Shown here: piece by piece, positions 10,198-62,733 of the stretch | Numbering within the stretch: position 1 is the first letter of the stretch | Layout: every line of letters begins with the position of its first letter | Assembly (NCBI GenBank): GCA_001899775.1 | Contig: MKWN01000037.1 | Coordinates: forward strand, 1-64,000 | Reading direction: 5' to 3' | DNA length: 64,000 nucleotides | From: Thiobacillus sp. 65-29 | Lineage (GTDB): Bacteria > Pseudomonadota > Gammaproteobacteria > Burkholderiales > Thiobacillaceae | Made by a program: the position numbers and the translations under genes | The notes under the pieces: model-generated | The model's input: only the letters and a program-made list of their open reading frames with translations | Told to the model about the DNA's origin: nothing | Database searches by the model: none

Positions 10198-11463
<1,266 letters not shown>

Positions 11464-11481
11464 GACAATAAGTTTTTCTTG

Positions 11482-11567: not shown

Positions 11568-11577
11568 TAAATGCTTT

Positions 11578-48687: not shown

Positions 48688-48778
48688 GGAAGCGTGGCCG
48701 AGTGGTTTAAGGCAGTGCTCTTGAAAAGCACCGAGGGCTGATACCCCTCCGTGAGTTCGAATCTCACCGCTTCCGCCA
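48688..48778 (+). tRNA. tRNA-Ser (anticodon UGA)
   Basis: A complete 91-nt class II tRNA. The acceptor strands GGAAGCG (48688-48694) and CGCTTCC (48768-48774) pair, the anticodon loop CTTGAAA gives anticodon TGA, there is a long variable arm and T-loop GTTCGAATC, and CCA is encoded at 48776-48778. Its last 14 bp recur at 62720-62733, marking it as the integration site of the adjacent element. Confidence 0.97.
48765..48778. repeat. attL core (14 bp) in the tRNA-Ser 3' end
   Basis: CACCGCTTCCGCCA, identical to 62720-62733 and in the same orientation. It forms the acceptor 3' strand and CCA of tRNA-Ser, so integration leaves the tRNA intact. Confidence 0.85.
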
Positions 48779-48822
48779 GAACATCAATAAAAACAATAAT
48801 TTGAAAGTGTAATGCAGGCATT

Positions 48823-48842
48823 ACCCACCACAACACCCACCA
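48823..48842. repeat. two ACCCACCA arm-type sites, left end
   Basis: ACCCACCA at 48823-48830 and 48835-48842, 12 bp apart start to start. The same octamer occurs three times at the right end (62557-62587) with the same spacing. Clustered, phased short repeats at both ends are expected of integrase arm-binding sites. Confidence 0.65.
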
Positions 48843-48900
48843 CTTCGAGGGTGCTAGGGAACGTGCCACTCATGTAGCGCTTTTTCGGAAAGGGAGAGGC

Positions 48901-49563
48901 ATGAAGGCACGCAACACGCTCACGGCTGCACTCATACTGGCATCTGCTCTACCCGGAGCAGTGCAAGCAGCCCTGCATGATCGCGGCGGCGGTTTCATCT
49001 ACGACGATGCTCTCGATGTCACCTGGCTGCAGGATGCGAATTACGCCAAGACCAGCGGGCATGATGCGGGCGGCCTGATGACCTGGCAGGATGCCATGGC
49101 TTGGGTTGCAGGCCTCAGCGTTTACGACGCAGTTCGCAACACCACTTACGACGACTGGCGGCTCCCGGTAAGCGATTTCTGCTTCAACTACTCAGGCTGC
49201 GTCGACAGTGAAATGGGGCACCTGTATTACATCGACCTCGGCGGTGTGGCCCACGTAGATCTAGCCACGACTCACAACGACAACTACCTGCTTTTCCAGA
49301 ATATCCAGAACCCATTTGACGCCGGCCATTGGTCGAGCACCGTGGCAAGCACCTATCCGTCGCTTACGGTCTGGGCTTTTGATATGGACAACGGCATACA
49401 GAGCAAGAATGGCGCATCGAGCGACGCATACCTTTACGCTTGGGCCGTTCGCGATGGCGACGTGGCCGCAATTCCGGAACCCGAGACCTACGCCATGATG
49501 CTGGCGGGCCTTGGGCTCGTTGCCTTCGCGGCAGGCCGCCGGAACCATCTCAAAGCCAGGTGA
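48901..49563 (+). CDS. PEP-CTERM sorting-domain protein, DUF1566/Lcl-like
   Basis: A 220-aa exported protein. It has a signal peptide (MKARNTLTAALILASALPGA ...), a DUF1566/Lcl-type domain (ALDVTWLQDANYAKTSG; MTWQDAMAWV; TYDDWRLP), and a C-terminal sorting signal PEPETYAMMLAGLGLVAFAA followed by GRRNHLKAR. Exosortase would recognise PEP and anchor or process the protein at the envelope. GGGAGAGGC precedes the ATG. It sits just inside attL, on the opposite strand from the phage-type genes and with lower GC than its neighbours. It is probably cargo or a capture of host DNA. Confidence 0.87.
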   Translation: MKARNTLTAALILASALPGAVQAALHDRGGGFIYDDALDVTWLQDANYAKTSGHDAGGLMTWQDAMAWVAGLSVYDAVRNTTYDDWRLPVSDFCFNYSGCVDSEMGHLYYIDLGGVAHVDLATTHNDNYLLFQNIQNPFDAGHWSSTVASTYPSLTVWAFDMDNGIQSKNGASSDAYLYAWAVRDGDVAAIPEPETYAMMLAGLGLVAFAAGRRNHLKAR

Positions 49564-49572
49564 AACCCCGCC

Positions 49573-51360
49573 TCACCGCGCACCCAGCACCAGCGGCTCG
49601 TGCCCTCGGTTCATGCTTGCATAAGGGTCGTATTCCTGCGCCTTGTGCATGACGGCGGGGCCAATATCGTCAAGGCTCCCCACCGGTACCGGCACGGCGA
49701 AGGTGATCGCCAGCGCGTCGGCCGAGTCGGGTGAGGCCAGGCCGCGCGCCTTCATGCTTTCCTTCTTCTCTAGCAGGATGGCGTCGGCGGCGTTGTAGCC
49801 ATACTCGACGCCGGTCAGGTCAGTGGCGAGCATTTCGTCGCGGGGGATCGCCCCACCAGCCAGCCATTCACGCATTAATCCCCAAATCTCCGCGCGCCGG
49901 TTCGCCCACTTGCGCGGGTCCATTGCCCGGCCGCCGAACTGCACTTCGTTCACATCAAAGCCGATGGAGCGCAGCCGGTCGATCACCCCGCCGCCCACAC
50001 CGCCGCCGTCGACGTTGACGATGACGCGATTGCCGGCCAGTCGCAGCGTGTTGACGTGCTCGACCACTCGCGCGGCCAGGGTCATGGTGTCCGCGCCCTT
50101 CAGACGGATGGGAGCCCACGAACGCGCGTCACGCCCGCAGCGGGTCCATATCACGCTGCTGTCGTCGCCGAAGCGTGCTGGGTCAACACCTACGACGAAA
50201 GCCTCGTGGCGCTCTGCGGACACTTCCCGCACTTGGGCGTCATTGACCACATCGCGCGAGATGAACTGCAGGCTGGATGCGCTCGGGAACTCGCCCAGGA
50301 CACGAACCTTCACGAAGTCCGAGCCGATGCCGTAGTCGGCCACCCACTCGTCGATCTGATTCTTGTTGGTGATCTGGCACGTGCGGCTGTCGATCTGCCG
50401 GATGTTCCAGCGGTGCCGCTGGCCGTTGAAGCACTCGAAGAACTTGGTTCCGGTCCGGGTAGGGTTGCCGAATGCGAACCACATCGGCGCACCGTCCGTC
50501 ATGCCGCCCTCGGCCACTTCCCAAATCTTGGCCGGGATCGCGCTCGCCTCGTCGAAGATGTAGAACGGCGTCGAATCGGCGGCGTGCAGGCCGGCGAAGG
50601 ATTCGCTGTTTTCCTCCCGGCACGTCTGCGCATCGCAGCGCCAGGACTCTGGATACTCGGCCATCGTCATGCGCATCGCGCCCTTGCCGGCCGTCACATC
50701 GAACCACTCGCCAAAGATGCAGCGCTTCGTCCACTTGCCGATTTCCGCCCAGGTCTTGGACTCAAGCTGTGGCGCCGTGTTCGCCGTCACCACGCCGCGC
50801 GCATTGGGGCGCGTGCTCATGATCCAGTTGACCAGCCATGCGGTGATCGCACTCTTGCCGATGCCGTGGCCGCTGCTGATCGCGTTTCGGATGGCATCGA
50901 CTGCGGTACGCCCGTCGAATGCTCGTTCCGTCACCTGGCTGCCAATTTCCTCCAGCAGCTCGCAGGCCCAGGCATCGGGGCCGTGCTCGGTGTCGTAGGT
51001 CTCTCGATATTCCTGCGGCAGCTTCACCACCTGCAGCGAGCGGTCACGATCCCACTCGTAGGCAAACAGCACAAAGGCCAGCGGCTTGTCGTAGAAGTAC
51101 CCAGCCATGCGCTGCAGGACGGTGGCGGGCTCGATCTTCCGGCGGGTTGAGCGCTCAGCAACGAACCCAATTCTCAGCCACCCACGGGCGATGCGCCCAA
51201 CGTCGCCGGGCGTCCCGGCAAGCGCCTGCAATTCCTCCCTGGTGTGAGACGGCTTGGGCGGGGTGCGCCTGGCTGCGAGGATTTCAGCGCGAATGTCGTG
51301 GGCTGCGGACTGCGCGGCTTCAATCTTCTCCAGCCGGCGGGAAATGTTGATGGCCGTCAT
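49573..51360 (-). CDS. phage terminase large subunit
   Basis: ATPase-nuclease that packages DNA into proheads. The 595-aa protein has an ATPase domain with the Walker A-like SSGHGIGKSAITAW (near 160-175) and Walker B FYIFDEASAI. An RNaseH-like nuclease domain follows, with acidic residues in FVVGVDPARFGDDSSVIWTR, VNVDGGGVGGGVIDRL and a late DSADALAITFAV. Full length. The start overlaps the 161-aa gene by 4 bp. It is the last gene of the minus-strand series. Confidence 0.92.
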   Translation of the reverse strand: MTAINISRRLEKIEAAQSAAHDIRAEILAARRTPPKPSHTREELQALAGTPGDVGRIARGWLRIGFVAERSTRRKIEPATVLQRMAGYFYDKPLAFVLFAYEWDRDRSLQVVKLPQEYRETYDTEHGPDAWACELLEEIGSQVTERAFDGRTAVDAIRNAISSGHGIGKSAITAWLVNWIMSTRPNARGVVTANTAPQLESKTWAEIGKWTKRCIFGEWFDVTAGKGAMRMTMAEYPESWRCDAQTCREENSESFAGLHAADSTPFYIFDEASAIPAKIWEVAEGGMTDGAPMWFAFGNPTRTGTKFFECFNGQRHRWNIRQIDSRTCQITNKNQIDEWVADYGIGSDFVKVRVLGEFPSASSLQFISRDVVNDAQVREVSAERHEAFVVGVDPARFGDDSSVIWTRCGRDARSWAPIRLKGADTMTLAARVVEHVNTLRLAGNRVIVNVDGGGVGGGVIDRLRSIGFDVNEVQFGGRAMDPRKWANRRAEIWGLMREWLAGGAIPRDEMLATDLTGVEYGYNAADAILLEKKESMKARGLASPDSADALAITFAVPVPVGSLDDIGPAVMHKAQEYDPYASMNRGHEPLVLGAR

Positions 51361-51842
51361 TCCGGTTCATCCTCGGTGTCGTTGCTCAATAGTGCGGCGG
51401 AGCCTTCCAGTGCCGGCTTGCCTTCAAGAGTGCGCAGCCGGCGCTCGTGCTCGTCGACCACCACCGCCTTGGCATAGGTGTCCAACATCCGCAGCAGCTT
51501 GTCGCCAGCCTCGGCGCTGATTTCTCCGTCAGCCACCGCCGCAAGGATCGCGGTCGCCTTGTCCTGCAGCGTCTCGGCCTCCTTCAAGCCAGGCACCACC
51601 ACTTTCTCGGCTTCCGGGCGAGGCGCTGGAGCCAGTCGCTCCAGACACACCTTGATGCTGGTCGGGTCACCCATCTTGGCGAGCTGGACAGCCTTGGCGA
51701 TGATCTCTGCCTTGTGCGGCTCGATGAGATCCCGTACCTGCTCCGACGGGCTTTTGCCGCGCGGGCGCCCCGGCGATTTCAGGCCATGCCCGGGGAGCAG
51801 CTTTCCGCCCTCCGCCCGTTTGACCTGCGTTTTCTCCGTCAT
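51357..51842 (-). CDS. DUF5681-like phage protein, possible terminase partner
   Basis: From ATG 51842 it is 161 aa. The N-terminus is basic with GLKSPGRPRGKSPSEQVRDL, a motif of DUF5681-type phage proteins often beside terminase genes. A helical region follows (HKAEIIAKAVQLAKMGDPTS), with an acidic tail (SNDTEDEPE). The 4-bp overlaps with the HTH gene upstream and terL downstream point to a packaging role. The small-terminase assignment is by position only. Confidence 0.6.
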   Translation of the reverse strand: MTEKTQVKRAEGGKLLPGHGLKSPGRPRGKSPSEQVRDLIEPHKAEIIAKAVQLAKMGDPTSIKVCLERLAPAPRPEAEKVVVPGLKEAETLQDKATAILAAVADGEISAEAGDKLLRMLDTYAKAVVVDEHERRLRTLEGKPALEGSAALLSNDTEDEPE

Positions 51843-52105
51843 GGCGCCAGCTTCTCCGTTCGGCTCACAACCCTGATGCGAACAGGCTCCACGTTCCGGC
51901 GCTTGTTGCCACTCTTCCCGACCCATGACTGCACGGTTGAGCGATGGACGCCAAGCGCCTTGCCGATGGAGCGATACCCCACACCAGCCGCGTACATCTC
52001 GCGTGCTTTGGCGACCACATCATCGTCATGCCGCGCCATCCCGTGCGACGCGCCGACAAGCTTGCCGATGGCGTTTTGAAACAAAATCTCGATTTTCGTG
52101 AGCAT
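51839..52105 (-). CDS. helix-turn-helix phage protein, 88 aa
   Basis: CCGGAGGACTAGGA precedes the ATG at 52105, a good ribosome-binding site. A resolvase/transposase-like HTH is visible in VVAKAREMYAAGVGYRSIGK ALGVHRSTVQSWV (about 30-62), then a basic tail. This is a common form of small terminase DNA-binding subunit, but it could equally be a transcription regulator. It overlaps the 161-aa gene. Confidence 0.65.
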   Translation of the reverse strand: MLTKIEILFQNAIGKLVGASHGMARHDDDVVAKAREMYAAGVGYRSIGKALGVHRSTVQSWVGKSGNKRRNVEPVRIRVVSRTEKLAP

Positions 52106-52107
52106 TC

Positions 52108-52329
52108 CTAGTCCTCCGGTAGCAGATTGGCCGACGTGTGCCCGCGCACCTGCAAAGCCAGGCGTAGTTTCCGCATCGCTTGGTGCTCGATGCGCCGCAC
52201 CTCCTGAACCGTCACCGTGCGGCCTTCCTCCTCGGAGAGAGCCGCGGCGATTTCCTCTTCCGTTGCAGCATCATCGGAGCGGCATTCCACAGTTAAGACT
52301 TCTTCGATGCCTCGTTCATCTGGTACCAA
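52108..52329 (-). CDS. sigma-70 region 4-like DNA-binding protein, 73 aa
   Basis: The sequence AAALSEEEGRTVTVQEVRRI followed by EHQAMRKLRLAL resembles sigma-70 region 4, in which a helix-turn-helix ends in a RxIExxAxRKLR-type helix. The only start in frame is TTG (52329), overlapping the upstream gene by 37 bp. With no region 2 it cannot be a full sigma factor. It may be a late-gene regulator. Confidence 0.55.
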   Translation of the reverse strand: MVPDERGIEEVLTVECRSDDAATEEEIAAALSEEEGRTVTVQEVRRIEHQAMRKLRLALQVRGHTSANLLPED

Positions 52330-52817
52330 CTGCTTGCGACTTGGCCGGCAGAAGTGAGTAGAGAAGACGCGCCCGAAGCGAATGGACTGATACCGGCAGC
52401 AGACCCGTACTTCATAAGCGCCTCGCTCTGATAGTTCGCTCCTTGGGTTCTGTATCCCCAGGCACTCCGAACCGCATTCGACTCAAGCGTCATGCGGTCT
52501 GTCTCTTTGAGGATTTCCGTGCTTGCCTGCAGTTCTGCTGCATTGCCTTCGCCAAGGTCGATGCCGTTGGCGGCCATCGAAGCACGTTGACGCGCCTTGA
52601 GCTGCCCGGCCTGCATGGTGAGGCTGGCGACTTCCTTCTGGCCGCGCTCCATCGCGCCGCGATAACCCAACTCAGCGATGCGGGCGTTGATGCGCGACAT
52701 GCTCGCCTCAAAGGCAAGCTGGTTCTTGGTCATTTTTGCGCTATAAAAACCGCCGATGGCTCCAGATACGGCACCGGCCGCTTGCAACCCGAGAGAGAGA
52801 TTTGCGTACATGGACAT
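52293..52817 (-). CDS. T7 gp14-like virion core protein
   Basis: A 174-aa protein. MSMYANLSLGLQAAGAVSGA IGGFYSAKMTKNQLAFEASM has the Gly/Ala-rich opening and helical continuation seen in podovirus internal virion proteins of the gp14 family, which are ejected to extend the tail across the envelope. Further parts are LKARQRASMAANGIDLGEGN and TLESNAVRSAWGYRTQGANY. Its presence without tail or portal genes is notable. Confidence 0.65.
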   Translation of the reverse strand: MSMYANLSLGLQAAGAVSGAIGGFYSAKMTKNQLAFEASMSRINARIAELGYRGAMERGQKEVASLTMQAGQLKARQRASMAANGIDLGEGNAAELQASTEILKETDRMTLESNAVRSAWGYRTQGANYQSEALMKYGSAAGISPFASGASSLLTSAGQVASSWYQMNEASKKS

Positions 52818-52830
52818 GGGTGTTCCTCCT

Positions 52831-53274
52831 TCAGTGGATTCGGTGAGTGTTGTTCAGAATCACGGGCGACATGCGCACCACTTCGTCGGTGATGATCGGC
52901 CAGCGATCGCACAGCACATCGAGAACGAAGGCCACGTCCGCCAGGGTGAAGCCCTCTGCCATCTGGGCGTCGGATGCCGACAGCCCAAGCTCGCCGGATT
53001 GCAGCTTGTCGAATGCCTCCAGCGGTTCGATTTCTTCCGGGGCGCCACGCTCGAACGCCAGCGAGGCCAACTCCCCGGCCACGGCAATCGAGCGCCGCAG
53101 CGAATCGGGTAGATCGCCAGATGGATGGCGAACCCAGCAACCGCCGTCGAAGGACTTCCCGCCGGGGTGAGGGTTGACCGCCAAGTGGATCTCGCAGCCT
53201 GCGGAGATGGCAACGACGCCCTGGCCAACGACATGGGCGATGGTGAGGCTGAGGTCTTGATTAGCGTTTGCCAT
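52831..53274 (-). CDS. hypothetical phage protein, 147 aa
   Basis: Begins MANANQDLSLTIAHVVGQGV. It is soluble, with a beta-rich N-terminus and a helical C-terminus (FTLADVAFVLDVLCDRWPII). No recognised domain. It overlaps the 250-aa gene by 14 bp and ends 13 bp before the gp14-like gene. Confidence 0.6.
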   Translation of the reverse strand: MANANQDLSLTIAHVVGQGVVAISAGCEIHLAVNPHPGGKSFDGGCWVRHPSGDLPDSLRRSIAVAGELASLAFERGAPEEIEPLEAFDKLQSGELGLSASDAQMAEGFTLADVAFVLDVLCDRWPIITDEVVRMSPVILNNTHRIH

Positions 53275-54013
53275 TCTTCAGCTTTCCGGCAACACGCTGG
53301 CTGCGTGCCTTCTTGGCCAGCATCACGATGGTCTCGGCGTCGTCACCCAGGCCCATTGCTTCGATAGCTCGCGCTACGCGGGCATCACGTGCCACCAGCG
53401 CCCGGGCGTCGCGCAGGGCTTGCTTGGCTCCGCTGCCGAATTCGCGATTGAGCGCGTCGACGGCAGCCTCGCGCTGGGTGATGGTCTCCACCGGCGTGCT
53501 GCGCAGCGTCTCAACTCTGGTGCGCAGGGTACGCACGTCCAGCACGCCGAGGTCGAGGTCGGCCGCCATTTCCCGCAACTCGACTGCGGCCTGGCGCGCG
53601 TCAGAAGGGTCGATGCCTTCCGCTTCGCATTGCTCGTCGGTCAGTTCCTGCACCACATCGCGCAGCATGGACTGTGCATCGAACATGCGGCGCTCAGGAA
53701 GGTCGCGCAGTTCCTGCACCTCTGGCGGGACCTCGGCCAGCGGGGCGGACTTCTCCGGTTCGGGGTAAAGGATCGCCTGCATCTCTTCGTCGGTGTGCGG
53801 GCGGGGCGGTGCGTCCTGCGCCGGCTCCGTGTCAGGGCCACCAAACAGGCGCGCGGCGGGGTCGCTGACAGGTTCGGCAGGCTTCGCTTCAGGCTTTGGT
53901 GTTGACGGGTAGAGTCGTTCGGCCATTGCCGTGGCCTCGTCTACGGGCGCCTGCGGGGTTGTGGGTTTGGGCGTGCCGTAGAGGCGTTCCGCCATCGTTG
54001 CGTCGTCAAGCAT
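53261..54013 (-). CDS. phage protein with AERLY repeats, possible scaffold
   Basis: A 250-aa protein. The N-terminal half is Pro/Glu-rich and disordered-looking, with a repeated short motif (MAERLYGTPK, MAERLYPSTPK, AARLFGGPD, AILYPEPEK). The C-terminal half is helical (REMAADLDLGVLDVRTLRTR; DARALVARDARVARAIEAMG) with a basic end (GKLKNGKR). The layout resembles head-assembly or scaffolding proteins, but this is weak inference. Confidence 0.5.
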   Translation of the reverse strand: MLDDATMAERLYGTPKPTTPQAPVDEATAMAERLYPSTPKPEAKPAEPVSDPAARLFGGPDTEPAQDAPPRPHTDEEMQAILYPEPEKSAPLAEVPPEVQELRDLPERRMFDAQSMLRDVVQELTDEQCEAEGIDPSDARQAAVELREMAADLDLGVLDVRTLRTRVETLRSTPVETITQREAAVDALNREFGSGAKQALRDARALVARDARVARAIEAMGLGDDAETIVMLAKKARSQRVAGKLKNGKR

Positions 54014-54015
54014 GG

Positions 54016-54480
54016 TCAGCCCCCATTCGCGGCAGGCAAAGCCCGCCAGTAACTCGGTTCGTCGGTCAGGAAGGCGTTCGCCTCGCCCTCGGTGAGTGCA
54101 GCGCCGGCAGTGGTCAGCATCAGGCCGGCATAACGCTCGTATTCACCGTCGGGGATGCGCACGCAGGCCAGCATGGTGCCTGCTGGAATGGGCGTCGTAC
54201 TCGTCGCCACAGGGTCGCACTCGATGTGCTCGGTTGCCGAGCCATCGGTGGCGATGGGGATTTGCGCATCGGATACCAAGGCGAAGGTCAGCGTGCCATT
54301 GCCTGCTGCCGTGATGGCCGAATACGCCGTGATGACCAGCCAGCCAGCGGTGTGCACCGGGCCGGGCATGTTGTACTTCATGTCGAGATGGTCGCCGATG
54401 ATCGCTGTGCCGATGGCAAGTGGCAGCACGCCCGATGGCGCACCCCCTTTGCAGAATCGTTCCCAGTCGCTCATGAACAT
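54016..54480 (-). CDS. putative Bbp16-like capsid cement protein
   Basis: From ATG 54480, with AGGAG upstream, it is 154 aa; the frame also opens at a TTG (54486). It is beta-rich, with GPVHTAGWLVITAYSAITAA, GTMLACVRIPDGEYERYAGL and a C-terminal EANAFLTDEPSYWRALPAAN. This pattern resembles Bbp16-type decoration proteins of podoviruses. It would need a capsid to bind, and none is encoded here, so it may act on a helper's capsid. Confidence 0.45.
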   Translation of the reverse strand: MFMSDWERFCKGGAPSGVLPLAIGTAIIGDHLDMKYNMPGPVHTAGWLVITAYSAITAAGNGTLTFALVSDAQIPIATDGSATEHIECDPVATSTTPIPAGTMLACVRIPDGEYERYAGLMLTTAGAALTEGEANAFLTDEPSYWRALPAANGG

Positions 54481-54482
54481 GG

Positions 54483-55130
54483 TCAAAGCTCCTGGTTGAC
54501 CTGCTCGGCCAAACTGGCGACTGCGGCCTGCAGCTTCTTCGAGCGCGCGGCGAAGGCGTCACCCACAGCACCAAGGTCATGGCGCTGGAGATGCACGGAC
54601 GGGCTAGGCGCGAGCTTGCTGAAAACGCCCAGGCGCAGCATCTCGCCCTCAAGCAAGCTGCCAAGCAGTGAATCTCGCAGGGCAACACCCTGGACAATCG
54701 CAGAGTAGCGGTCACGCTGGCGCGTCGGAATCTGGCGCAGCAGTTCGCCTGCATCTACGCGGGCGGCATCGCCATGCTTGTGCATTTCCTCAAGCACTGA
54801 GACCAACTGCGCCAGCGCTTTGTCGACCTTGCCAGCGAGCGCTGCAGCGGCGTCGAGTTCGGCCACCACGCGCTTGACCCGGCCCAGGTTGGAAGCCTTC
54901 TGCTGGGCGCGGCCCTCGTCGCTCAGTTCTCCCTGCAGTTTCGCCAGGCGGCGCTCGTTGGAGGCTGCCATCGCCTCGCGCACGCCGATCTCGCTTTGGA
55001 TCACCGCGACTTCCTCGGCGTTGCCGCTGTCCGCTGCGTCGTCGAGTTCCTGGCGCAGCAGCTCCAAGGCCTTGCGGTTGGCTTCCTCCTGCTTCTGCAG
55101 GCCTTCAATCTTTTCCGTGATGCTTGCCAT
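54483..55130 (-). CDS. coiled-coil phage protein, 215 aa
   Basis: Begins MASITEKIEGLQKQEEANRK with heptad-like coiled coil through about residue 75 (LELLRQELDDAADSGNAEEV; ASNERRLAKLQGEL). More helices follow, including LVSVLEEMHKHGDAARVDAG and a C-terminal KKLQAAVASLAEQVNQEL. No domain is recognised. The position before the cement-like gene would fit a scaffold or a capsid-interacting factor. Confidence 0.6.
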   Translation of the reverse strand: MASITEKIEGLQKQEEANRKALELLRQELDDAADSGNAEEVAVIQSEIGVREAMAASNERRLAKLQGELSDEGRAQQKASNLGRVKRVVAELDAAAALAGKVDKALAQLVSVLEEMHKHGDAARVDAGELLRQIPTRQRDRYSAIVQGVALRDSLLGSLLEGEMLRLGVFSKLAPSPSVHLQRHDLGAVGDAFAARSKKLQAAVASLAEQVNQEL

Positions 55131-55216
55131 GGTCGGCTCCTGTGTTGAGTTGCTGCCATGGTGGCTGTCCATGCTGCATTTGTGGGCCAAAGGGAGGGAT
55201 GCGGGAGGGATAACCT

Positions 55217-55651
55217 TCATTCGATGCGCACCGGCAGCCCGAGCGGGTCATAGCAGCAGCGGACGGTCGCCCCTTCAGCTCTGAGGCGAATCGACCGAAC
55301 GGCCTCGGCCAGTGTGTGCAGGTTCATGTCGGCAAGGCGCTTGGCGAGCCGCCTACGCTGATCCTTGAGCGCGTCGCGGCTAAGTTCAGTCGATGCGACA
55401 ACCCACTCCCCAGGCGAAGCCAATGCGCGGCCGGCTTCACAAGCAATGCCCGGCACCCTTGCCAGGGTGCGGGTGTAGCCCTCCGTGTTCGTGACGCGCA
55501 GCGTGCCGGCCTCGTAGCGCCAGGCGCAGGGCTTCGCCGACAGTGCGCGCAGTTCCTCGATCACCTCCAGCACGTCGGCCATGCGTCCGGGGTCGCTCGG
55601 CAGGTGCATGGACAGAATGCCGGCGGCGATGGTCGCTTGCTCGGGGGTCAT
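55217..55651 (-). CDS. hypothetical phage protein, 144 aa
   Basis: From ATG 55651: MTPEQATIAAGILSMHLPSD, a helical protein with LEVIEELRALSAKPCAWRYE and DALKDQRRRLAKRLADMNLH. The ribosome-binding site is weak and an upstream extension is possible. It is the first gene after the repeat-rich gap and therefore opens the late, packaging-type block. Confidence 0.5.
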   Translation of the reverse strand: MTPEQATIAAGILSMHLPSDPGRMADVLEVIEELRALSAKPCAWRYEAGTLRVTNTEGYTRTLARVPGIACEAGRALASPGEWVVASTELSRDALKDQRRRLAKRLADMNLHTLAEAVRSIRLRAEGATVRCCYDPLGLPVRIE

Positions 55652-56207
55652 CCAATCGCCTGTTTCTTGCGGTCGGTGGCGGGTAGAGCGGTGGGTATTG
55701 GCGACAAAGTATCCGCAATACCGCACCAGCAAAGGACTACAAGCGGATAATGGTTCCGCCATACTCGTCTGCTGGCGTGGTTGCCGATGGCCTCAGTGCG
55801 GCCCGAGCCCGTCGAATCGCGCTCAGCTATGCGTTGCTGCCCTCGCCCGCTTTGCCCAGCCAGGATTGAGTGCGGGTGCTCAGTTCCACCACCATCTCTC
55901 ATGGCTAGGGACTCCATCAGCATCCAGTGCGGATAGGTGTTTCGCACCAATTCGCACCAGTCTCTGTCCATCCCGTTTTCCCGTCCCGTTATCGTTCCCG
56001 CAGCTCCTATAGCTGCTGCGGGAATCGCGGGAAAGTCCGGGGTTCCCGTTTCGGGACATTTCGGGAATCGCGGGAAACGCCTGTAAGCCTTGCCGTTATT
56101 GGCCTTCGGGGCATTTATTGATTTCGGGAATGCCCACTTTTTCGTCCTGAGTTTCCCCTGGCGTATGAGTTCGGGTCTACCCACCACTTCGGGAAAAAAC
56201 GGGAAAG
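55652..56207. promoter_or_regulatory. repeat-rich control or origin region
   Basis: This 556-bp gap separates the replication block from the packaging block. It holds a hairpin with 10-bp arms (TTCCCGCAGC 55995-56004, GCTGCGGGAA 56015-56024). Two exact copies of CGGGAATCGCGGGAAA (56019-56034, 56062-56077) follow, along with other CGGGA/TCCCG units to about 56205, and an internal ACCCACCACTTCG (56179-56191) matching the left-end arm site. A minus-strand open frame crosses it but its sequence is driven by the repeats. Origin iterons or a regulator-binding array are both plausible. Confidence 0.55.
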
Positions 56208-57404
56208 TCAGACGCACCATATCCAGCCCTCCCGATGCGCCAGATTCCCGCGTGAAATAAGCCCGGTGATTGCTGACTGTGTTCGCTCGGTCTGCCGCTT
56301 CGGATCACACACGAGCCTGCCACGCACCGCCTTGATCGCGTCTTCCAGGCGAAGGCACGGACGCCCGTTTGGGACGCCTTTGGGGGCATCTTGGGGCGCG
56401 AGTGTCCCGGCAGACTTGAACAGTTCACCCAAGGCATCCCAAACGACGCGCTGGTTTCCGGACTTGGGCGGCAGTGCCCGCCGAACGCTCTCGCTCGGGC
56501 CTTGCTCGGCTTGCACCACACACGATGTAACGGGCTCGCCATCCTCATCGATACCAAGATCAACAACCCGCAAGGTGAACGGATGCGCCTTGCCGTCCGC
56601 CCCATCCTTGGACTTGAACACGCGCCACGAGCGCCGATCTTCCTCGCGGCTCACCTCGATGGCGCAATCCAGGGCAGCAATCAAGCTTGAGTGCCCACGC
56701 AGCCCTTTGTTCGAGTCCTTGCCAGTGTGGTGGACAAGCAGGACCAGCCCACCCAACTCGGCTTGTATGGCCTTGGCGGCGCCGATGACTTCCCCCATGT
56801 CCTGCGAGCTGTTTTCATCCATGCCAGGCGCGGCGCGGTTGAGAGTGTCGATACACAGAACACCATCGGCCCACCCGGCCGCCCTCACCGCTTCGATCAA
56901 AGCAGCGCGATCCATCGGACTCCGTATGTCCATCGGCGTCAGCATGTAGCGCAAGCCACGACAAGGGCCGTGCTTGATGCGGCGGGCCTTCACCCGTTGC
57001 GCGATTCCGGCTTCCCCCTCCAGCCCGACGTACAGCACAGGCGCATCCTTCACCCGGCAGCCGAACCATTCATCACCACCCGCAACCGCTGCAAGCAGAT
57101 CGAGCGTGAGGAAGCTCTTGCCGCTACCACTCGGACCAAAGATCGCAGCGATGCCGGTAGCCGGCAGGACGCCACGCACCAGCCACGGAACGGGCGGCAT
57201 GGCCTCCAGGTCGTCGTCGGTCAGCAGTTTGAACTTTGGCGACGGTGCCATCTCGCCAAACGGGTCAGCCGTCATGCGGCTTTGATTTTTCTGTGTGCTA
57301 CCATGCCCATAGAGTGTTTTACCTTGTGCGCCCCGCCCTTCGTGGGGCGTTTCTTTTTGGGCGGCCGCCATCGGTGGCGATTGTGCGAGAACGTCGACCG
57401 TCAT
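56208..57404 (-). CDS. RepA-type AAA/RecA-like ATPase
   Basis: A 398-aa protein of the hexameric RepA helicase family (AAA_25). Walker A is FGPSGSGKSFLTLDLL (near 88-103), and Walker B-like motifs are GVLCIDTLNRAAPG and GGLVLLVHHTGKDS with SSLIAALDCAI. The C-terminus has a winged-helix-like region. It likely loads or unwinds at the element's origin, which may be the repeats just downstream. Its ATG overlaps the AlpA gene stop. Confidence 0.85.
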   Translation of the reverse strand: MTVDVLAQSPPMAAAQKETPHEGRGAQGKTLYGHGSTQKNQSRMTADPFGEMAPSPKFKLLTDDDLEAMPPVPWLVRGVLPATGIAAIFGPSGSGKSFLTLDLLAAVAGGDEWFGCRVKDAPVLYVGLEGEAGIAQRVKARRIKHGPCRGLRYMLTPMDIRSPMDRAALIEAVRAAGWADGVLCIDTLNRAAPGMDENSSQDMGEVIGAAKAIQAELGGLVLLVHHTGKDSNKGLRGHSSLIAALDCAIEVSREEDRRSWRVFKSKDGADGKAHPFTLRVVDLGIDEDGEPVTSCVVQAEQGPSESVRRALPPKSGNQRVVWDALGELFKSAGTLAPQDAPKGVPNGRPCLRLEDAIKAVRGRLVCDPKRQTERTQSAITGLISRGNLAHREGWIWCV

Positions 57405-57595
57405 GCCGCCCCCTTGCGCTGCCGCTGCCTGATCCAGTGGTCGACCTCATCCTCGACGAACATCAACCGCCTGGGCGCGACCTGAACCGGCTGGACGAAC
57501 TCGCCACGGTCGACCATGCGCTCAATCGTCCGCCGACTCGGCCCGTCATCACCGCCGAGCTTTTGTTGCACCGCCTCGTAGCTGATGAGCTTCAT
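57401..57595 (-). CDS. AlpA-like HTH protein, 64 aa
   Basis: MKLISYEAVQQKLGGDDGPS then RRTIERMVDRGEFVQPVQVA and VEDEVDHWIRQRQRK: an excisionase-type winged helix of the AlpA/MerR-like group. It lies between primase and RepA with 4-bp overlaps. Proteins of this type activate integrase or excision genes in P4-like elements. Confidence 0.8.
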   Translation of the reverse strand: MKLISYEAVQQKLGGDDGPSRRTIERMVDRGEFVQPVQVAPRRLMFVEDEVDHWIRQRQRKGAA

Positions 57596-58566
57596 TGTTG
57601 CCCCCTGTGTGATCTCATGCGCTCAGTGTCGGCTTGTGGTCGGTGGGTACGCGCACCCTGGAGAACGTCGAGCCAGTCGCCCACCACCGGCGGTACGTTC
57701 ACCTCAACGTCAAAGCCCTGCTGCACCAATCTGAACGCGGCGACATAGGCGGCCCGCTGCCCCGTGAAGCTGGCGTCGTTGTCCGCGAAGATCGTGATGC
57801 GCTTCACACCCGCAGGCGGCTCGAAGGTTTCGATGCCGTGCGCCGTGACGCATGACCAGACTGGAATGCCGAACCGAATGGAAGCCGCCAGGGCCGTTTC
57901 AATTCCCTCGGCTATGCCTATCCCTTCACCGACTGCCGAAAGTCGAATGGCGGCCCCTGTGACGGGCCTGCCGGGCATCAATTTCTTCGGACACTCGACC
58001 GGCGCCTTGTTCCCATCCTTGAGATAGGTCCGATGGAGCGTCACGCCCGTTCCGTCCGGTGCCAGGACGCGCGCAACCATCGCCGGGAACTTGCCGACGA
58101 ACTTCTCGCCGTCGTGATACGGAAGGGCCGGATGCAATCTCAGGTTGTCCGGTGGGCTTGCCAGATCGAGCCCACGCCCTGCCAGATAGCGCATCACCTC
58201 GTCGCTTATGGCCAGGGGCCTGCACTCGCTCCACACTCGGCGCAGCGCATCCAGCTTTTGCGCCTCGTCGGGAAGCTTCGCGACCGGCGCCGGCTGCACC
58301 ACTCCGGCGATAGCCTCGATCTCCTGGGCCGCCGTCTTGAAGTCCCAGCCCTTGAGTGCCATCACCAGCGCCACACCATCACCAGCCTTGCAATGCGAGC
58401 AATAGAACGTCCCGCGCCCCTCCTGATCGTCGAAGCGGAACCGATCTTTCCCGCCGCACATCGGGCAGGCCGTGTGTTTGCCGGAGAGATGCTTGTCGGT
58501 CAGGCCGAAACTGGACAGGATGCCGCGCCAGCGGCCTTGTGCCACCTCACGGACGGGCTGCAGCAT
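57592..58566 (-). CDS. TOPRIM primase with zinc-binding domain
   Basis: From ATG 58566, with GGAAGGAGG upstream, it is 324 aa. The zinc motif is CPMCGGKDRFRF ... FYCSHCKAGDG (near 34-66). A TOPRIM domain follows with GIAEGIETALAAS and ITIFADNDAS. This matches the primase half of P4 alpha and T7 gp4, without a fused helicase. It overlaps the helicase gene by about 20 bp and the next AlpA gene by 4 bp. Confidence 0.88.
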   Translation of the reverse strand: MLQPVREVAQGRWRGILSSFGLTDKHLSGKHTACPMCGGKDRFRFDDQEGRGTFYCSHCKAGDGVALVMALKGWDFKTAAQEIEAIAGVVQPAPVAKLPDEAQKLDALRRVWSECRPLAISDEVMRYLAGRGLDLASPPDNLRLHPALPYHDGEKFVGKFPAMVARVLAPDGTGVTLHRTYLKDGNKAPVECPKKLMPGRPVTGAAIRLSAVGEGIGIAEGIETALAASIRFGIPVWSCVTAHGIETFEPPAGVKRITIFADNDASFTGQRAAYVAAFRLVQQGFDVEVNVPPVVGDWLDVLQGARTHRPQADTERMRSHRGQQ

Positions 58567-60079
58567 TGGCAGCCTCCTTCCGCTTGGCATGGCGAATATC
58601 GCGGGATCTCACAAAGCTGATAAGGGCTTCCGATGCCGGTGCTGGTGCGTCATCAAGCCCCCTCGGCCACACCCCGAAGATGTCGCGGTAAATGTGTGCG
58701 GCCCACCCAAGCTTTCGACCCTTTTCGCGCGCCATCCAAAGCAAGGCGGAATAGGCCGCCTGCTTCTCGTCCCGCGTCGGTTTCTTGCCGCGATCGAGCC
58801 TCACAAGCTCGCCATCCTCGACCTCGACCTCGGACTTCCTCTCAGGCTCGAAGCCACAGGCCGGGCAAACGTGCACCTTAGGCGGCCGAACATAGCTGCA
58901 GGACGGGCACTTCTTCGGTTTCGATTCATCCTTCTGCTTGGCGCCGCTCGCCTTCTTCGGCGTGCCGTCGTCCAGTTCAAGCGGCAGGTCGTCGGTCGGA
59001 TAGCCGAGATGCGCGGCGCTGCCGGAATGGTCGAGGATGATGGCGCGGGATTTTCCCGGATAAGGGCGCAGCACCCGGCCAGCCATTTGAATCCACCGCG
59101 TCAGGCTTCGAGTCGGCCGCGCCAGGATCATTACCCCGCAGGCCGGCATGTCCCACCCTTCGGTCAAAATCCCCACGTTGGAGATCACCCGAGTCTGTCC
59201 GCTGGTGACGCGCTCCAGAATGCCACGGCGCTCTTCCTCGTCTGTGTAGCAGTCGATGTGCTCAGCCGGAATGCCGGCGGCGTTGAACTCACTGGCGATG
59301 TGCTTGCTGTGGGCAATGCTGGTCGCAAAGCAGACGGTCGGCAGGTCACCGCCAAGCCGCTTCCAGTGCGCCACGATGTCGCCCACCAAGGAAGGCTTGT
59401 CCACGGCTGCCGCCAGTTGGCGCTCGTTGTAGTCCTGCTCACCGAATGCATTGCGCACCAGGGCGACGCCTGAAAGATCAGGCTCAGATGGCGCGTAGAT
59501 GTCGCAGTCGACCAGGAAGCCCAGGTCGATGAGTTCCCGGATGCTGGCGGCCTTCACGATGCGCTCGAACAGCGGACCGCCCAGATCGTCGTAATGCTTG
59601 CCGAGCCCCTTGGCGAACGGCGTGGCACTCAACCCGATCACTGGCAGGGCGTTGTACCGGAACAGCAGCTCGCGATAGTGGCGGGAGCCGGCGACACCAT
59701 GGGCCTCGTCGATCACGATCACGTCTATGTCGACGGGCAAGCCTCGCCTGGCCACGGTATGAATGGAGCAGACCAGAACAGGCGCATCAAGCCGGTGGGT
59801 GTTGTCACCTTGCAGCACGCCGACACTCAGGCCGGACTGGCGCAAGCGGCGCGCAGCCTGCTCCACAAGCCCGATCCGGTTGGCGACGAACGCCACACGC
59901 CGGCCTTTACTGTTGGCGGAGTGGATCAGCGCAATGGCGATCTCTGTCTTGCCGCTGCCAGTGGGTGAGTAGATGATTTGCCGCAGGAGGCCGGCGCGTC
60001 CATTCTCTCGGGCCTGCTCCACGGCGCCGGACTGGTAGGGGCGGAGTTCCATCACTCGCCCCCCTGCATCGGGCCGCAT
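58547..60079 (-). CDS. DEAD/DEAH-box superfamily 2 helicase
   Basis: A 510-aa protein. Motif I is YSPTGSGKTEIAIALI, motif II is VIVIDEAHGVAG (DEAH), motif III is GLSATPF, and motif VI is RWIQMAGRVLRPYPGK. A C-terminal zinc-ribbon-like module carries CPSCSYVRPPKVHVCPACGF. ELRPYQSGAVEQ near the start is the Q-like motif. The ATG at 60079 follows the AlpA stop by 3 bp; an ATG at 60052 is an alternative. Confidence 0.88.
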   Translation of the reverse strand: MRPDAGGRVMELRPYQSGAVEQARENGRAGLLRQIIYSPTGSGKTEIAIALIHSANSKGRRVAFVANRIGLVEQAARRLRQSGLSVGVLQGDNTHRLDAPVLVCSIHTVARRGLPVDIDVIVIDEAHGVAGSRHYRELLFRYNALPVIGLSATPFAKGLGKHYDDLGGPLFERIVKAASIRELIDLGFLVDCDIYAPSEPDLSGVALVRNAFGEQDYNERQLAAAVDKPSLVGDIVAHWKRLGGDLPTVCFATSIAHSKHIASEFNAAGIPAEHIDCYTDEEERRGILERVTSGQTRVISNVGILTEGWDMPACGVMILARPTRSLTRWIQMAGRVLRPYPGKSRAIILDHSGSAAHLGYPTDDLPLELDDGTPKKASGAKQKDESKPKKCPSCSYVRPPKVHVCPACGFEPERKSEVEVEDGELVRLDRGKKPTRDEKQAAYSALLWMAREKGRKLGWAAHIYRDIFGVWPRGLDDAPAPASEALISFVRSRDIRHAKRKEAANAAARP

Positions 60080-60082
60080 GAC

Positions 60083-60295
60083 TCAGCCTTTGGTGCTGGT
60101 GGTCGGACGGCTCGCCGCCACGCGCTGCTTGATCCAGGCGTCGATTTCCTCGGCAACCCAGCCAGTCGCGCGGACGCCCAACTTGATGGGCGGCGGCATG
60201 TCGCCGGTTTTGACCTTCAGGAATACTGAGGACCGCGAAAGGCCCGTGCGGGCCATCACGTCAGGTAAGCGAATGATGTTGACCATCTTCTGCAC
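60083..60295 (-). CDS. AlpA-family regulator, 70 aa
   Basis: IIRLPDVMARTGLSRSSVFL then KVKTGDMPPPIKLGVRATGW and VAEEIDAWIKQRVAAS is the canonical AlpA sequence. In P4-like satellites such proteins trigger integrase expression and excision. It heads the helicase-primase-RepA operon and is separated from the 46-aa gene by a terminator. Confidence 0.88.
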   Translation of the reverse strand: MQKMVNIIRLPDVMARTGLSRSSVFLKVKTGDMPPPIKLGVRATGWVAEEIDAWIKQRVAASRPTTSTKG

Positions 60296-60370
60296 TCCGT
60301 TAAATTCAAAGGAGTCCTAAGACTATTGGCCGTTTTCTGAGGTACGCGCACCCCCCCCAGGACACAAAAG

Positions 60371-60396
60371 AAAAAGCCCGCACTGGGCGGGCCTTT
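60371..60396. terminator. Rho-independent terminator, mainly minus strand
   Basis: GCCCGC (60376-60381) pairs with GCGGGC (60387-60392). On the minus strand the stem is followed by TTTTTC, so it ends transcripts coming from int, the 217-aa gene and the 46-aa gene before alpA. T residues also follow on the plus strand. It splits the right-hand genes from the replication operon. Confidence 0.8.
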
Positions 60397-60423
60397 CTGG
60401 CTGATTCGACTACCTGAGAAACG

Positions 60424-60564
60424 TCATCGGCTCGTCGTGCTGACCCTGACCAGCAAACGCGCGAATGCTACAGCCCCGGATAATGGCGGCTTGCCGCTGG
60501 TGGTTACGCTGATCGTCTGGCCGCGCTTGCCGGGGGCTTTCCGAGTTTGTTTTTTGCTGGTCAT
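60424..60564 (-). CDS. small basic protein, 46 aa
   Basis: From ATG 60564, with GAGAGGT upstream: MTSKKQTRKAPGKRGQTISV, strongly basic, then a short tail ending VRVSTTSR. It follows the 217-aa gene by 11 bp and precedes a strong terminator. Function unknown; the basic character would suit nucleic-acid binding. Confidence 0.45.
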   Translation of the reverse strand: MTSKKQTRKAPGKRGQTISVTTSGKPPLSGAVAFARLLVRVSTTSR

Positions 60565-60575
60565 GTCATGACCTC

Positions 60576-61229
60576 TCACAAAAGTTTCGGTCCCAGTTGG
60601 CACGGCTTCCGGAAGGGGACCACATTGCCACCGCATTGGATCGGGTTGTCGGCATAGGCCACACCAGACGCGGAAACTTCTTCTGCGATGCAGTCAGGCG
60701 TCCATTGCTCCCTCAGCGACAGGTCCATAACGACACCACCCGCTTCAACCATGCCTCGTAACTCGGCGGTAAGTTCGTAGACCCTATTAAGCGCCGAATC
60801 GTGCAATCTGTAGCCACCCGACATTCCAGAACTGAACTCGCGCTCAATTCCATCCAGCAGAGAACCAATCATGCGGCCGGTTTGATCACGGTATTCACGC
60901 GTAGTCCTAGGCCATGACGCCACGAGCTCTTTGGCCTGCCGGAGTTCCTTTTCGCATTTCTCGCTTTGCTCCTGAGCTGCTTTTTCTTCCTCGTTCAAAT
61001 CACGGTAGACGCTGAACGTCGTCTTGGACGCGCGACGGATGCTGATTTCTCGCCCCAGCGGGTCTATCGTCTTGCATGTGGTTTTCTTCTCGCCGGGGTC
61101 GCCGGGGAAAGGCCACTCGCGGGTGATGCCGTGCTGAATCAGCGCCTCGCGCGTTCCCCTGGCACAGTGGCCCCACCAGTGGTGTTCGATCTTGACGCCA
61201 CGCGAGCGGCTAGAATTGGATGCAGCCAT
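60576..61229 (-). CDS. hypothetical element protein, 217 aa
   Basis: From ATG 61229, with AGGAG upstream: MAASNSSRSRGVKIEHHWWG HCARGTREALIQHGITREWPF, then a charged coiled segment (NEEEKAAQEQSEKCEKELRQ) and a helical region. No recognised domain. It lies between int and the 46-aa gene. A role as regulator, immunity or anti-phage factor is possible only by position. Confidence 0.55.
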   Translation of the reverse strand: MAASNSSRSRGVKIEHHWWGHCARGTREALIQHGITREWPFPGDPGEKKTTCKTIDPLGREISIRRASKTTFSVYRDLNEEEKAAQEQSEKCEKELRQAKELVASWPRTTREYRDQTGRMIGSLLDGIEREFSSGMSGGYRLHDSALNRVYELTAELRGMVEAGGVVMDLSLREQWTPDCIAEEVSASGVAYADNPIQCGGNVVPFRKPCQLGPKLL

Positions 61230-61313
61230 GATGCAATCTCCTAGACAGGTTGTTTTGTGGTCAGGGCTGGTCGGGTGTTGCTGCACCCTTCCGGCCCGCT
61301 TTGCCTGAATCCG

Positions 61314-62531
61314 TCAGGCGGCGGCTTTACCTTTGATCGACACTACGTTTTCCTTCGGCTCGCACCACGCGGCCCAGTCGGCCATCATCTGGCGCCGCTT
61401 CTCGAACATGTCGCCGCGCCGGTATGCCGCCTCCACCTTGTTGCCAACCACGTGCGCCAGCGCCATCTCGGCCATCTCGCCGGGGTAGTGCGTGACCTCT
61501 GCGGCCCAGTCCCGGAACGCAGAACGGAACCCGTGGACCGTGATGCCTGGGCTCATCCGGCGCAGCAGCATGGTGAGGCTCATATCTGACATGGGCTTGC
61601 CGCTGCGCACGCCGGGGAAAATGTGTTCACCCTGGCAAAGCTTCTTGGCATCTTCGAGCACCGCCAGCGCCGCATCCGAGAGAGGAATCCGGTGTTCCTT
61701 GCGAGCCTTCATCCTCGACGCAGGGATGACCCACACGCCCTTTTCCTCGTCTATCTCGGACCATTTCGCCTTCAGGGCCTCGCCACTGCGGCAAGCGGTG
61801 AGGATGACGAACTCCAGGCACAGCACACTGACCCCCTCATGGGTGCGCAGTTTGCCCATGAACTCGCCCATCTGATCGTATGGCAGGGCGGCGTGATGCT
61901 TGTGCGGCGCGATCTTGCCCGGCTGCGGCAGCACGTTGTCGAGGTGCCCACGCCAAGCTGCGGGATTCTCGCCGCTGCGGTAGCCCTTCACCTTGGCGTA
62001 GGACAGCACAAGCTCAATCCGTCCGCGCAGCCGCTTGGCCGTTTCGGTCTTGGTGAGCCAAATCGGGTTGAGCACTTCCAGCACCCTGGCGGTGTCCACC
62101 TCGCCGACCGCAATATCCCCCAGCACGGGGTAAGCGTAGGAGGCGAGCGTGTTCTCCCACTGGGCGGCGTGCTTGCTGTTCTTCCAGCCGGCCCGGTTGG
62201 CCTTGATGTATTCCAGCGCCATCGCCTTGAAGGTGACGGCCCCCGCAGCAACACGGGCGGCTTGCTCGGCCGCCACCTGGGCTTGCTGCTTGCGGTTCTC
62301 CAAGGGGTCGATCTTGTTGTGTACCAAGGCCCGCGCCCCGGCCGCCAGCCGCCGCGCATCCTTCGCGCTCACGTCGGCCAGCGAGCCCAGCCCCATCTCG
62401 CGGCGCCGGCCGTTGATCTGGAACCGGTAGATCCACGACTTCGCACCCGAGGGGCTCACCTGGAGATATAGCCCGTCACCGTCAAGCCAATACCCAGGCT
62501 TGGCATGTTTTATTTTCAGCTCAGTAAGCAT
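61314..62531 (-). CDS. P4-type tyrosine integrase
   Basis: From ATG 62531, with GGAGGGTGG upstream, it is 405 aa. An N-terminal DUF4102-type arm-binding domain (LKIKHAKPGYWLDGDGLYLQ) leads to the SAM-like core-binding domain and the catalytic domain. Catalytic residues are seen in ILTACRSGEALKAKWSEID (Arg), TVHGFRSAFRDWAAE (HxxR) and the nucleophile in EAAYRRGDMFEKRRQMM. It is adjacent to attR and reads into the element. Three ACCCACCA sites lie just upstream. Confidence 0.93.
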   Translation of the reverse strand: MLTELKIKHAKPGYWLDGDGLYLQVSPSGAKSWIYRFQINGRRREMGLGSLADVSAKDARRLAAGARALVHNKIDPLENRKQQAQVAAEQAARVAAGAVTFKAMALEYIKANRAGWKNSKHAAQWENTLASYAYPVLGDIAVGEVDTARVLEVLNPIWLTKTETAKRLRGRIELVLSYAKVKGYRSGENPAAWRGHLDNVLPQPGKIAPHKHHAALPYDQMGEFMGKLRTHEGVSVLCLEFVILTACRSGEALKAKWSEIDEEKGVWVIPASRMKARKEHRIPLSDAALAVLEDAKKLCQGEHIFPGVRSGKPMSDMSLTMLLRRMSPGITVHGFRSAFRDWAAEVTHYPGEMAEMALAHVVGNKVEAAYRRGDMFEKRRQMMADWAAWCEPKENVVSIKGKAAA

Positions 62532-62556
62532 CTTCCACCCTCCGCCATAGTCAACC

Positions 62557-62587
62557 ACCCACCATCTACCCACCACTCTACCCACCA
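62557..62587. repeat. three ACCCACCA arm-type sites, right end
   Basis: ACCCACCA at 62557-62564, 62568-62575 and 62580-62587, starts 11 and 12 bp apart, same orientation as the two left-end copies. They lie upstream of int, where the integrase arm domain would bind and could also repress its own promoter. Confidence 0.65.
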
Positions 62588-62618
62588 TTATGGCGATGGA
62601 TTGCAAAAAATCAAGGTG

Positions 62619-62707
62619 AACTGTAGTGGACTATAAATCGCTGAATTGCGCTTTCCTTATGGCTTTGCGGTTGACTTTGCTGAACAAAAATAAACTGTAG
62701 TGGACTA
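62619..62707. repeat. 15-bp direct repeat near attR
   Basis: AACTGTAGTGGACTA occurs at 62619-62633 and exactly again at 62693-62707, 74 bp apart, between the arm sites and the attR core. It may bind AlpA/excisionase or a host factor; no copy was noticed at the left end. Confidence 0.6.
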
Positions 62708-62719
62708 CAGATTGGCGGA

Positions 62720-62733
62720 CACCGCTTCCGCCA
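62720..62733. repeat. attR core (14 bp)
   Basis: CACCGCTTCCGCCA, identical to the 3' end of tRNA-Ser. It lies inside a perfect 9-bp inverted repeat (ATTGGCGGA 62711-62719, TCCGCCAAT 62727-62735). It is 33 bp before the radical SAM gene. Confidence 0.85.

Follow-up and report, generated by a model that had tools for sequence, protein, structure and literature searches.

Phage satellites are described as obtaining their packaging machinery in one of two ways. P4, the phage-inducible chromosomal islands (PICIs) and the phage-inducible chromosomal minimalist islands (PICMIs) borrow the motor of a helper phage, and the capsid-forming PICIs (cf-PICIs) and the Mulch and Flayer satellites bring both a motor and a shell (PMC12409344, PMC10690885, PMC10803314). 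Here we describe an integrated element in Thiobacillus sp. 65-29 that encodes a large terminase subunit (TerL), a candidate small subunit (TerS-like protein), a scaffold-like protein (orf250) and a cement protein, and in which no shell or portal gene was recognized. It lies in positions 1 to 64,000 of contig MKWN01000037.1 (assembly GCA_001899775.1; 2.9 Mb, 61 contigs), the whole stretch of 64,000 nucleotides that was analyzed and is called the window below. From comparative genomics we infer, with a probability of about 70%, that the element is a phage satellite from a lineage that parasitizes BPP-1-like short-tailed phages. As far as our searches show, this is a new combination: a TerS-like protein and TerL together with a scaffold-like protein and cement, but neither shell nor portal. 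Among the matches listed in the literature, seen as titles and the starts of abstracts and including few subscription papers or preprints, there was no satellite with its own TerL, scaffold and cement but without a capsid.

Boundaries of the element

The element comprises 13,955 bp between exact 14-bp direct repeats of the tRNA-Ser 3' end, at 48765 to 48778 and 62720 to 62733 (both read on the plus strand). The tRNA-Ser(TGA) gene occupies 48688 to 48778, and its final 14 bases are the left repeat. The joined flanks align unbroken in the congeners G096 (query 17 to 778, 83%; alignment inspected) and G097 (1 to 778, 79%), and in several further congeners the alignment spans the junction. The exact repeats and the uninterrupted site in congeners uphold the limits of 48765 to 62733 at tRNA-Ser proposed in the initial annotation. 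Other content at this site was examined in three congeners. In one of them, G081, the same tRNA-Ser region (G081:C36:72500-90500, about 959 to 6519) holds a different integrase (30% identical) and, judged by eye, a large primase-type gene, so the site accepts other elements too.

The PHROGs and Pfam scans covered 20 proteins, 19 of them belonging to or lying inside the element series and one being a small overlapping open reading frame (ORF). These scans support the integrase, AlpA, primase, RepA-type ATPase, superfamily 2 (SF2) helicase, TerL, cement-like and gp14-like proteins named in the initial annotation, and the ORF list shows no broken genes, in keeping with the compact, undecayed minus-strand series that it described.

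Absence of capsid and portal genes

None of the 20 proteins matched a capsid, portal or lysis family in PHROGs or Pfam; tail families gave just weak matches to one protein, orf245, at E values of 0.02 to 0.04, which are typical of coiled coils. An NCBIfam scan of 10 element proteins returned nothing useful. Capsid and portal profiles were also built from five BPP-1-like phage contigs located through TerL. Outside the building set they recover the capsid in eight loci and the portal in six (two of the loci, L010 and L046, are near-copies), and they recover both in the complete prophage L073 and in BPP-1. They have no match in the window, in the related elements L039, L040, L041 and G496 described below, in stretches of G217, G273, G282 and G501 (with contigs of just 7 kb for G217 and G501) or in G1449. 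They also have no match in seven whole carrier genomes, the host included, for which the positive controls are the local loci and not hits within the same runs. The negatives thus refer to BPP-1-type profiles and to the Pfam, PHROG and NCBIfam (10 proteins) libraries, and within that scope the lack of recognizable capsid, portal and lysis genes is confirmed.

A divergent capsid or portal concealed among the unassigned proteins was considered and rejected: library and profile scans were negative, the unassigned proteins are no longer than 250 amino acids, and the hidden Markov model profiles of orf250 and orf245 did not match the capsid family. By these searches the element has neither the Bbp17- and Bbp21-type capsid and portal genes of a BPP-1-like prophage nor the capsid and portal that, with a protease and connectors, accompany TerS and TerL in a cf-PICI, TerL being present. 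The protein at 53261 to 54013, left unassigned at first, is distantly homologous to a protein of phage head assembly and is neither capsid nor portal. Together with the shell-less state of the nearest relatives, the missing capsid and portal support the satellite-like character suggested at the outset.

Head-assembly and virion proteins

BPP-1 and the five comparison phages share the gene order portal, a protein of about 190 to 230 amino acids, capsid and cement. The protein in the slot between portal and capsid is Bbp18 in BPP-1, and orf250 (53261 to 54013, minus strand; 250 amino acids) is its distant homologue by profiles. When eight orf250 sequences were compared with the five phage slot proteins by hhalign, the probability was 95.9% (E = 5.9e-9); the 99 aligned columns close with a GLGxHPxxI region present on both sides. 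The controls (orf245 against the slot protein, and orf250 and orf245 against the capsid) did not exceed 0.2%. The orf250 profile gave 40 matches at E <= 1 among the 9,615 ORFs of the examined loci. These were 24 orf250 copies, 11 of the 13 slot ORFs known to the phage profile (E = 8.5e-8 to 5.9e-3), three copies of a G217 ORF adjoining orf250 and two copies of one ORF at E = 0.96. Searched against BPP-1, the same profile placed Bbp18 at the top of 388 ORFs (1.7e-4), and phrog_458, the family of the phage protein, was matched by two of the eight orf250 members (best, 0.003). We consider a Bbp18-type head-assembly homologue well supported by these comparisons. The orf250 protein had no tblastn match in 50,697 phage records, and its AlphaFold model is partly confident (mean predicted local distance difference test score, 66).

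The scaffold role of the Bbp18-type protein, and with it that of orf250, is suggested by position, by analogy and by the Pfam scan, in which no protease domain was found. In the part of the BPP-1 head paper available to us, Bbp16 is the cement, the word protease is absent and scaffold occurs only as the name of software (PMC3863775). In the accessible account of the Staphylococcus aureus pathogenicity islands (SaPIs), proteins of SaPI1 and SaPIpT1028 compete with the helper scaffold through common motifs and alter head size (PMC12409344). The orf250 protein fits this pattern of scaffold competition because it combines the C-terminal region of the phage protein with a different N-terminal half; its Bbp18-type homology supplies the motifs in common with a helper-type scaffold that mark a CpmB-like protein, provided that the phage protein is indeed a scaffold, as we presume.

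The cement protein (54016 to 54486, minus strand) belongs to the Bbp16 family, scoring 32.4 bits against PF21190 (1.3e-7), above the curated cut-off of 27.1, and is 88% identical in L039. A mixed satellite-phage cement profile (A3), which contains phage rows, matches the BPP-1 cement chain 3j4u. No convincing PDB sequence match was found for the cement, the TerL or the orf250 profile of the window. The gp14-like internal virion (ejection) protein (52293 to 52817, minus strand) matches phrog_418 at 4e-23, with the Pfam T7_gp14 match below the cut-off, and shares 40% identity with the internal virion protein of BPP-1. Next to the cement gene, orf245 (54483 to 55220, minus strand) encodes a coiled-coil-type protein. 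In seven of the eight orf250 loci this gene directly precedes either orf250 or the cement and orf250 genes as a pair. The orf245 protein matched no phage record, and its PDB matches were weak and to unrelated helical proteins (best, 0.013).

Related elements

A TerL search of genome contigs found eight loci, of which the three full-length matches are elements of the same kind, all located at guaA. That of Thiobacillus RS262 (L039/L047) has a gene order identical to the window's from helicase to TerL; its integrase is a different one, its RepA has been replaced and its gp14 has diverged. The Stutzerimonas stutzeri 24a75 element (L041/L056) carries a primase, a weak orf245 homologue, cement, orf250, TerS-like protein and TerL, and that of Azonexus hydrophilus (L040/L054/L055) carries gp14, a transglycosylase-type protein and a large virion protein, followed by TerS-like protein and TerL. 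Imperfect repeats resembling attachment sites delimit spans of about 14.2, 12.4 and 19.9 kb in RS262, Stutzerimonas and Azonexus, respectively. A further element of about 11.5 kb, in G496, encodes an integrase, AlpA, a primase, an orf245-like protein, orf250, a TerS-like protein and TerL (62.5%). The four nearest relatives by TerL, at 92, 82, 72 and 62% identity, are thus all integrative, about 11 to 20 kb long and devoid of BPP-1-type capsid and portal. The question of whether close relatives are larger prophages retaining the missing genes is answered in the negative for these four, and a remnant with complete prophages as its nearest relatives was rejected on the same ground.

Other loci hold parts of the set. 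G282 keeps the TerS-like protein and a Bbp16 cement beside a different type of TerL (26% over part), and G273 has orf250 and gp14. Cement was found in the window, L039, L041 and G282, and weakly in G501. An orf250 profile of three sequences had matches in 6 of the 399 genomes searched from the order and, among 369 from the class, in one, the window's own. With a profile of eight, matches came from 2 of 390 genomes in the Stutzerimonas order and from 3 of 398 in the phylum. These samples overlap and contain the query's own genome. The matches in G1001 and G1533 have identical coordinates and represent the head-assembly gene of a complete prophage. From these comparisons the type is seen to be a recurrent lineage across hosts and sites and not a one-off wreck.

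Some of these loci have further features. The RepA of the RS262 element (10132 to 11406 in L047, genome G098) has the same first residues as the window's RepA and a different ATPase body, beside a primase that is 86% identical, and this difference is a module swap. A shell-less element in G1449 (L085, G1449:C11:56000-75999, about 3736 to 13347) contains an integrase, a RepA-type protein and an orf250-like ORF (3.7e-9), followed, by eye, by a TerS-like and a large virion-type protein, with no TerL match. Beyond the packaging genes of L085 (14182 to 15165), G273 and G496 lie what we take, by eye, to be SRAP/YedK (SOS-associated peptidase-like) proteins. In G217 (L064, G217:C190), the ORF adjoining orf250 (218 to 520, minus strand) also matches the orf250 profile (2.1e-7), and the contig ends soon after; it is perhaps a second copy of the orf250 C-terminal part, or a frame break.

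Terminase lineage and selection

The TerL of the window (49573 to 51360, minus strand; 595 amino acids; phrog_2, 2e-41) has an N-terminal extension of about 75 residues common to all five element TerLs (the window, L039, L040, L041 and G496). In a tree of 44 rows these five form one clade (100/100, 100% of 200 bootstraps). The satellite label in this tree comes from locus content; a capsid or portal is confirmed for 14 of the 39 other rows, the rest being short or more distant with contents unchecked, the G282 TerL was left out, and in the L041 row the mechanical choice of start had added a spurious stretch upstream. Among the 39 other rows, matches to the window protein begin at residue 72 or beyond in all but three, which begin at 55, 69 and 69. 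The N-terminal region had no match in the 50,697 phage records.

The TerS-like protein (51357 to 51842, minus strand) is so named for its position and its conservation beside TerL in six elements. Its likely start is the ATG at 51842, giving 161 amino acids, and the longest ORF starts at 51926. It matches phrog_9747 (function unknown) at 7e-7 and no TerS family in PHROGs or Pfam, and compared by profile it shows no relation to the TerS of the five comparison phages, which fits a packaging site of its own. Just two matches came from the phage collection, one of them in MT836812.1 (L088; 456 to 878, 26%, 2e-4), an unannotated 8.7-kb fecal phage record that could be a small satellite.

The ratio of nonsynonymous to synonymous substitution rates (dN/dS) was obtained for 11 of 18 genes by comparing the two Thiobacillus elements; the other seven (int, orf236, the first alpA, repA, orf190, gp14 and orf73) had been replaced or were too diverged or short to compare. 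Values run from 0.097 for terL, the most constrained of the compared genes, to 0.55 for orf250 (48% identical), and since all 11 are below 1 they argue against decay.

These results bear on whether the element is a reduced, decaying BPP-1-like prophage that has lost its capsid, portal and tail genes while the rest linger. In favor of such a remnant, what the element carries (TerL, cement, gp14 and a Bbp18-like protein) is part of the gene set of the homologous phage, and the Azonexus and Thiobacillus elements retain different parts, as separate deletions might leave; the mobility of the element is, moreover, a prediction from its genes. We nevertheless find it improbable, given that the TerLs of elements from four host groups cluster in a single clade marked by an N-terminus of their own, that relatives have other integrases and sites, that the element shows no broken genes, that dN/dS is below 1 in all 11 genes compared, and that the replication and regulation genes (AlpA and RepA) are unlike those of BPP-1.

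Other genes of the element

At the right end lies a tyrosine integrase (61314 to 62606; phrog_1, 7e-53; PF22022, 6e-31), encoded on the minus strand like all of the following genes until stated otherwise. It is followed leftward by orf236 (60576 to 61286), for which the sole match is phrog_2688 at E = 0.04, and by AlpA, a regulator or excisionase (60083 to 60295; PF05930, 3e-17). The replication genes are the SF2 helicase (58547 to 60079; phrog_16, 8e-98), the primase (57592 to 58590; phrog_510, 5e-84) and the RepA-type AAA_25 ATPase (56208 to 57404; PF13481, 7e-39). Of two AlpA proteins in the initial annotation the one above stands, and the second (57401 to 57595) is an AlpA-like helix-turn-helix (HTH) protein whose PF05930 match is below the cut-off. 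Next come orf190 (55648 to 56220), a doubtful ORF with no family and an L039 match of just 37 residues, and orf181 (55217 to 55762), with 56% identity to its L039 counterpart and no assigned function. Also without assigned function are orf147 (52831 to 53274; 64% identical to the L039 counterpart) and the 73-residue orf73 (52108 to 52329; 65% identity over 52 residues in L039). A small HTH protein (51839 to 52105), with weak HTH-family matches, is conserved in L039, L040 and L041. Inside the repeats, between TerL and the tRNA and on the plus strand, a gene for an exported protein with a PEP-CTERM sorting signal (48901 to 49563; PF07589, 3.4e-8) is probable cargo.

No convincing defense cargo was found. 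PADLOC matched one of nine scanned proteins, the helicase, through models that share helicase domains (best, PbeA, 4.9e-23).

Proposed cycle and helper dependence

The gene content looks like that of an element dependent on a helper, which would have to obtain shell, portal and tail from a BPP-1-like phage. On entry of the helper, AlpA would switch the element on, leading to excision and replication. The orf250 protein would then compete with its helper equivalent for the helper capsid protein, most likely giving smaller heads, which the satellite's cement would coat and stabilize. The element's own TerS-like protein and TerL would load satellite DNA through the helper portal, its gp14 would join the ejection set, and the helper would provide shell, portal, tail and lysis. 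From the homology of orf250 we infer capsid redirection by analogy with the SaPIs. At 13,955 bp the element is about one third of the 42,493 bp of BPP-1, a ratio described for known satellites (PMC10803314, as far as consulted). We advance tentatively, at somewhat short of even odds, the full picture of a long-lived lineage of shell parasites, bringing its own TerS-TerL motor with a private TerL domain to select the DNA for packaging, a diverged scaffold to set head size, and a cement and an ejection protein to stabilize and empty the head, and taking just shell, portal, tail and lysis from the helper.

The main rival to capsid redirection is that the satellite fills helper heads of full size as a multimer of about three copies, with orf250 and the cement serving interference or head stability and not a change of size. 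Three copies make 41.9 kb, near the 42.5 kb of BPP-1; in the accounts available, PICMIs pack concatemers into full-size heads (PMC10803314) and known satellites sometimes lack small heads (PMC12409344). Yet the PICMIs, as described there, have no packaging or capsid genes, whereas the present element keeps a diverging scaffold-like gene, and element sizes from about 11.5 to 19.9 kb imply that a fixed multiple is not general. We judge the multimer unlikely.

By the profiles described above, none of the seven carrier genomes has a BPP-1-type capsid or portal, and a resident helper prophage was therefore rejected for them. This, extended to the genus by the capsid profile, would be expected of a chromosomal anti-phage island whose decoy head and packaging proteins spoil phage assembly without the island being transferred, and satellite scaffold proteins are reported to interfere with helpers (PMC12409344, in part). 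However, a decoy would hardly need TerL to be the most constrained gene compared (0.097), the integrase, attachment repeats and distinct hosts and sites favor mobility, and the PADLOC scan gave no match for the eight proteins other than the helicase. We regard such an island as very improbable.

Several observations weigh against the satellite reading itself. It is built on gene content, from which a helper, excision, packaging and small heads are predicted. In IMG/VR no TerL N-terminus was confirmed and orf250 was not found, giving no sign of encapsidated copies. The BPP-1-type capsid profile has no match within the genus and matched 1 of 117 genomes of the family, distantly, in another genus. 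The module set varies, with neither orf250 nor cement detected by profile search in the Azonexus element and no TerL match in G273 or G1449. As for orf250, hhalign with three sequences in place of eight falls to 42%, the reverse search with the phage profile falls short of significance (best, 0.44), a Foldseek comparison with viral models returned no match at E <= 0.001, and the Bbp18/phrog_458 family is labeled protease in PHROGs and RefSeq.

If the satellite reading is true, it suggests a role for orf250, a protein without any library match, and makes the orf245-orf250 pair and the TerL N-terminal region markers for finding further elements. It would also provide a satellite family for a phage group with a solved head structure (BPP-1, PMC3863775, consulted in part), making capsid redirection structurally testable.

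Comparison with known systems

With the BPP-1-like temperate podophages the element has in common the terminase fold and homologues of the cement (Bbp16), of the head-assembly protein (Bbp18) and of the gp14-type protein (Bbp12). Unlike them, the element lacks capsid, portal, tail, lysis and CI genes, has one third of their size and carries different replication genes.

P4 with Sid is likewise a small satellite with a capsid-size protein, a likeness taken from descriptions, and P4 Psu is a capsid decoration protein; the typical P4 set also includes a primase-helicase and Delta. Unlike the present element, P4 relies on the terminase of its helper (PMC10690885, as far as seen). The PICMIs and the Mulch and Flayer satellites are also small helper-dependent elements; in the sections consulted, PICMIs have no identifiable packaging genes (PMC10803314), and Mulch and Flayer have capsid and portal genes and no primase (PMC10690885).

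The resemblance to PICIs is closer. As these are described in the sources available (PMC6092414, PMC12409344), PICIs and SaPIs have an integrase, AlpA in the Gram-negative PICIs, a replication module and a length of 12 to 15 kb, and SaPIs with CpmB or Rcm combine TerS with a scaffold-mimicking capsid switch. The element shows the conserved order of integrase, master regulator and replication genes of Gram-negative PICIs (int, AlpA, helicase, primase and RepA), and its 13,955 bp falls within their range of about 12 to 15 kb (PMC6092414). The same source describes Gram-negative PICIs as using attachment sites that prophages never occupy and as depending on a phage for their induction and packaging. 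It differs in that PICIs are characterized there by the absence of phage structural genes, and the element has cement, gp14-like and Bbp18-like proteins as well as TerL. It resembles the cf-PICIs in encoding both TerS and TerL (PMC10690885, in part); the capsid, protease, portal and connectors that cf-PICIs bring were not found here. If the satellite reading is true, a terminase pair, a scaffold-like protein and a cement without a shell would break the division between borrowed motor and motor plus shell, and the full picture of a shell parasite would make the element a living intermediate that links PICIs with capsid-forming PICIs.

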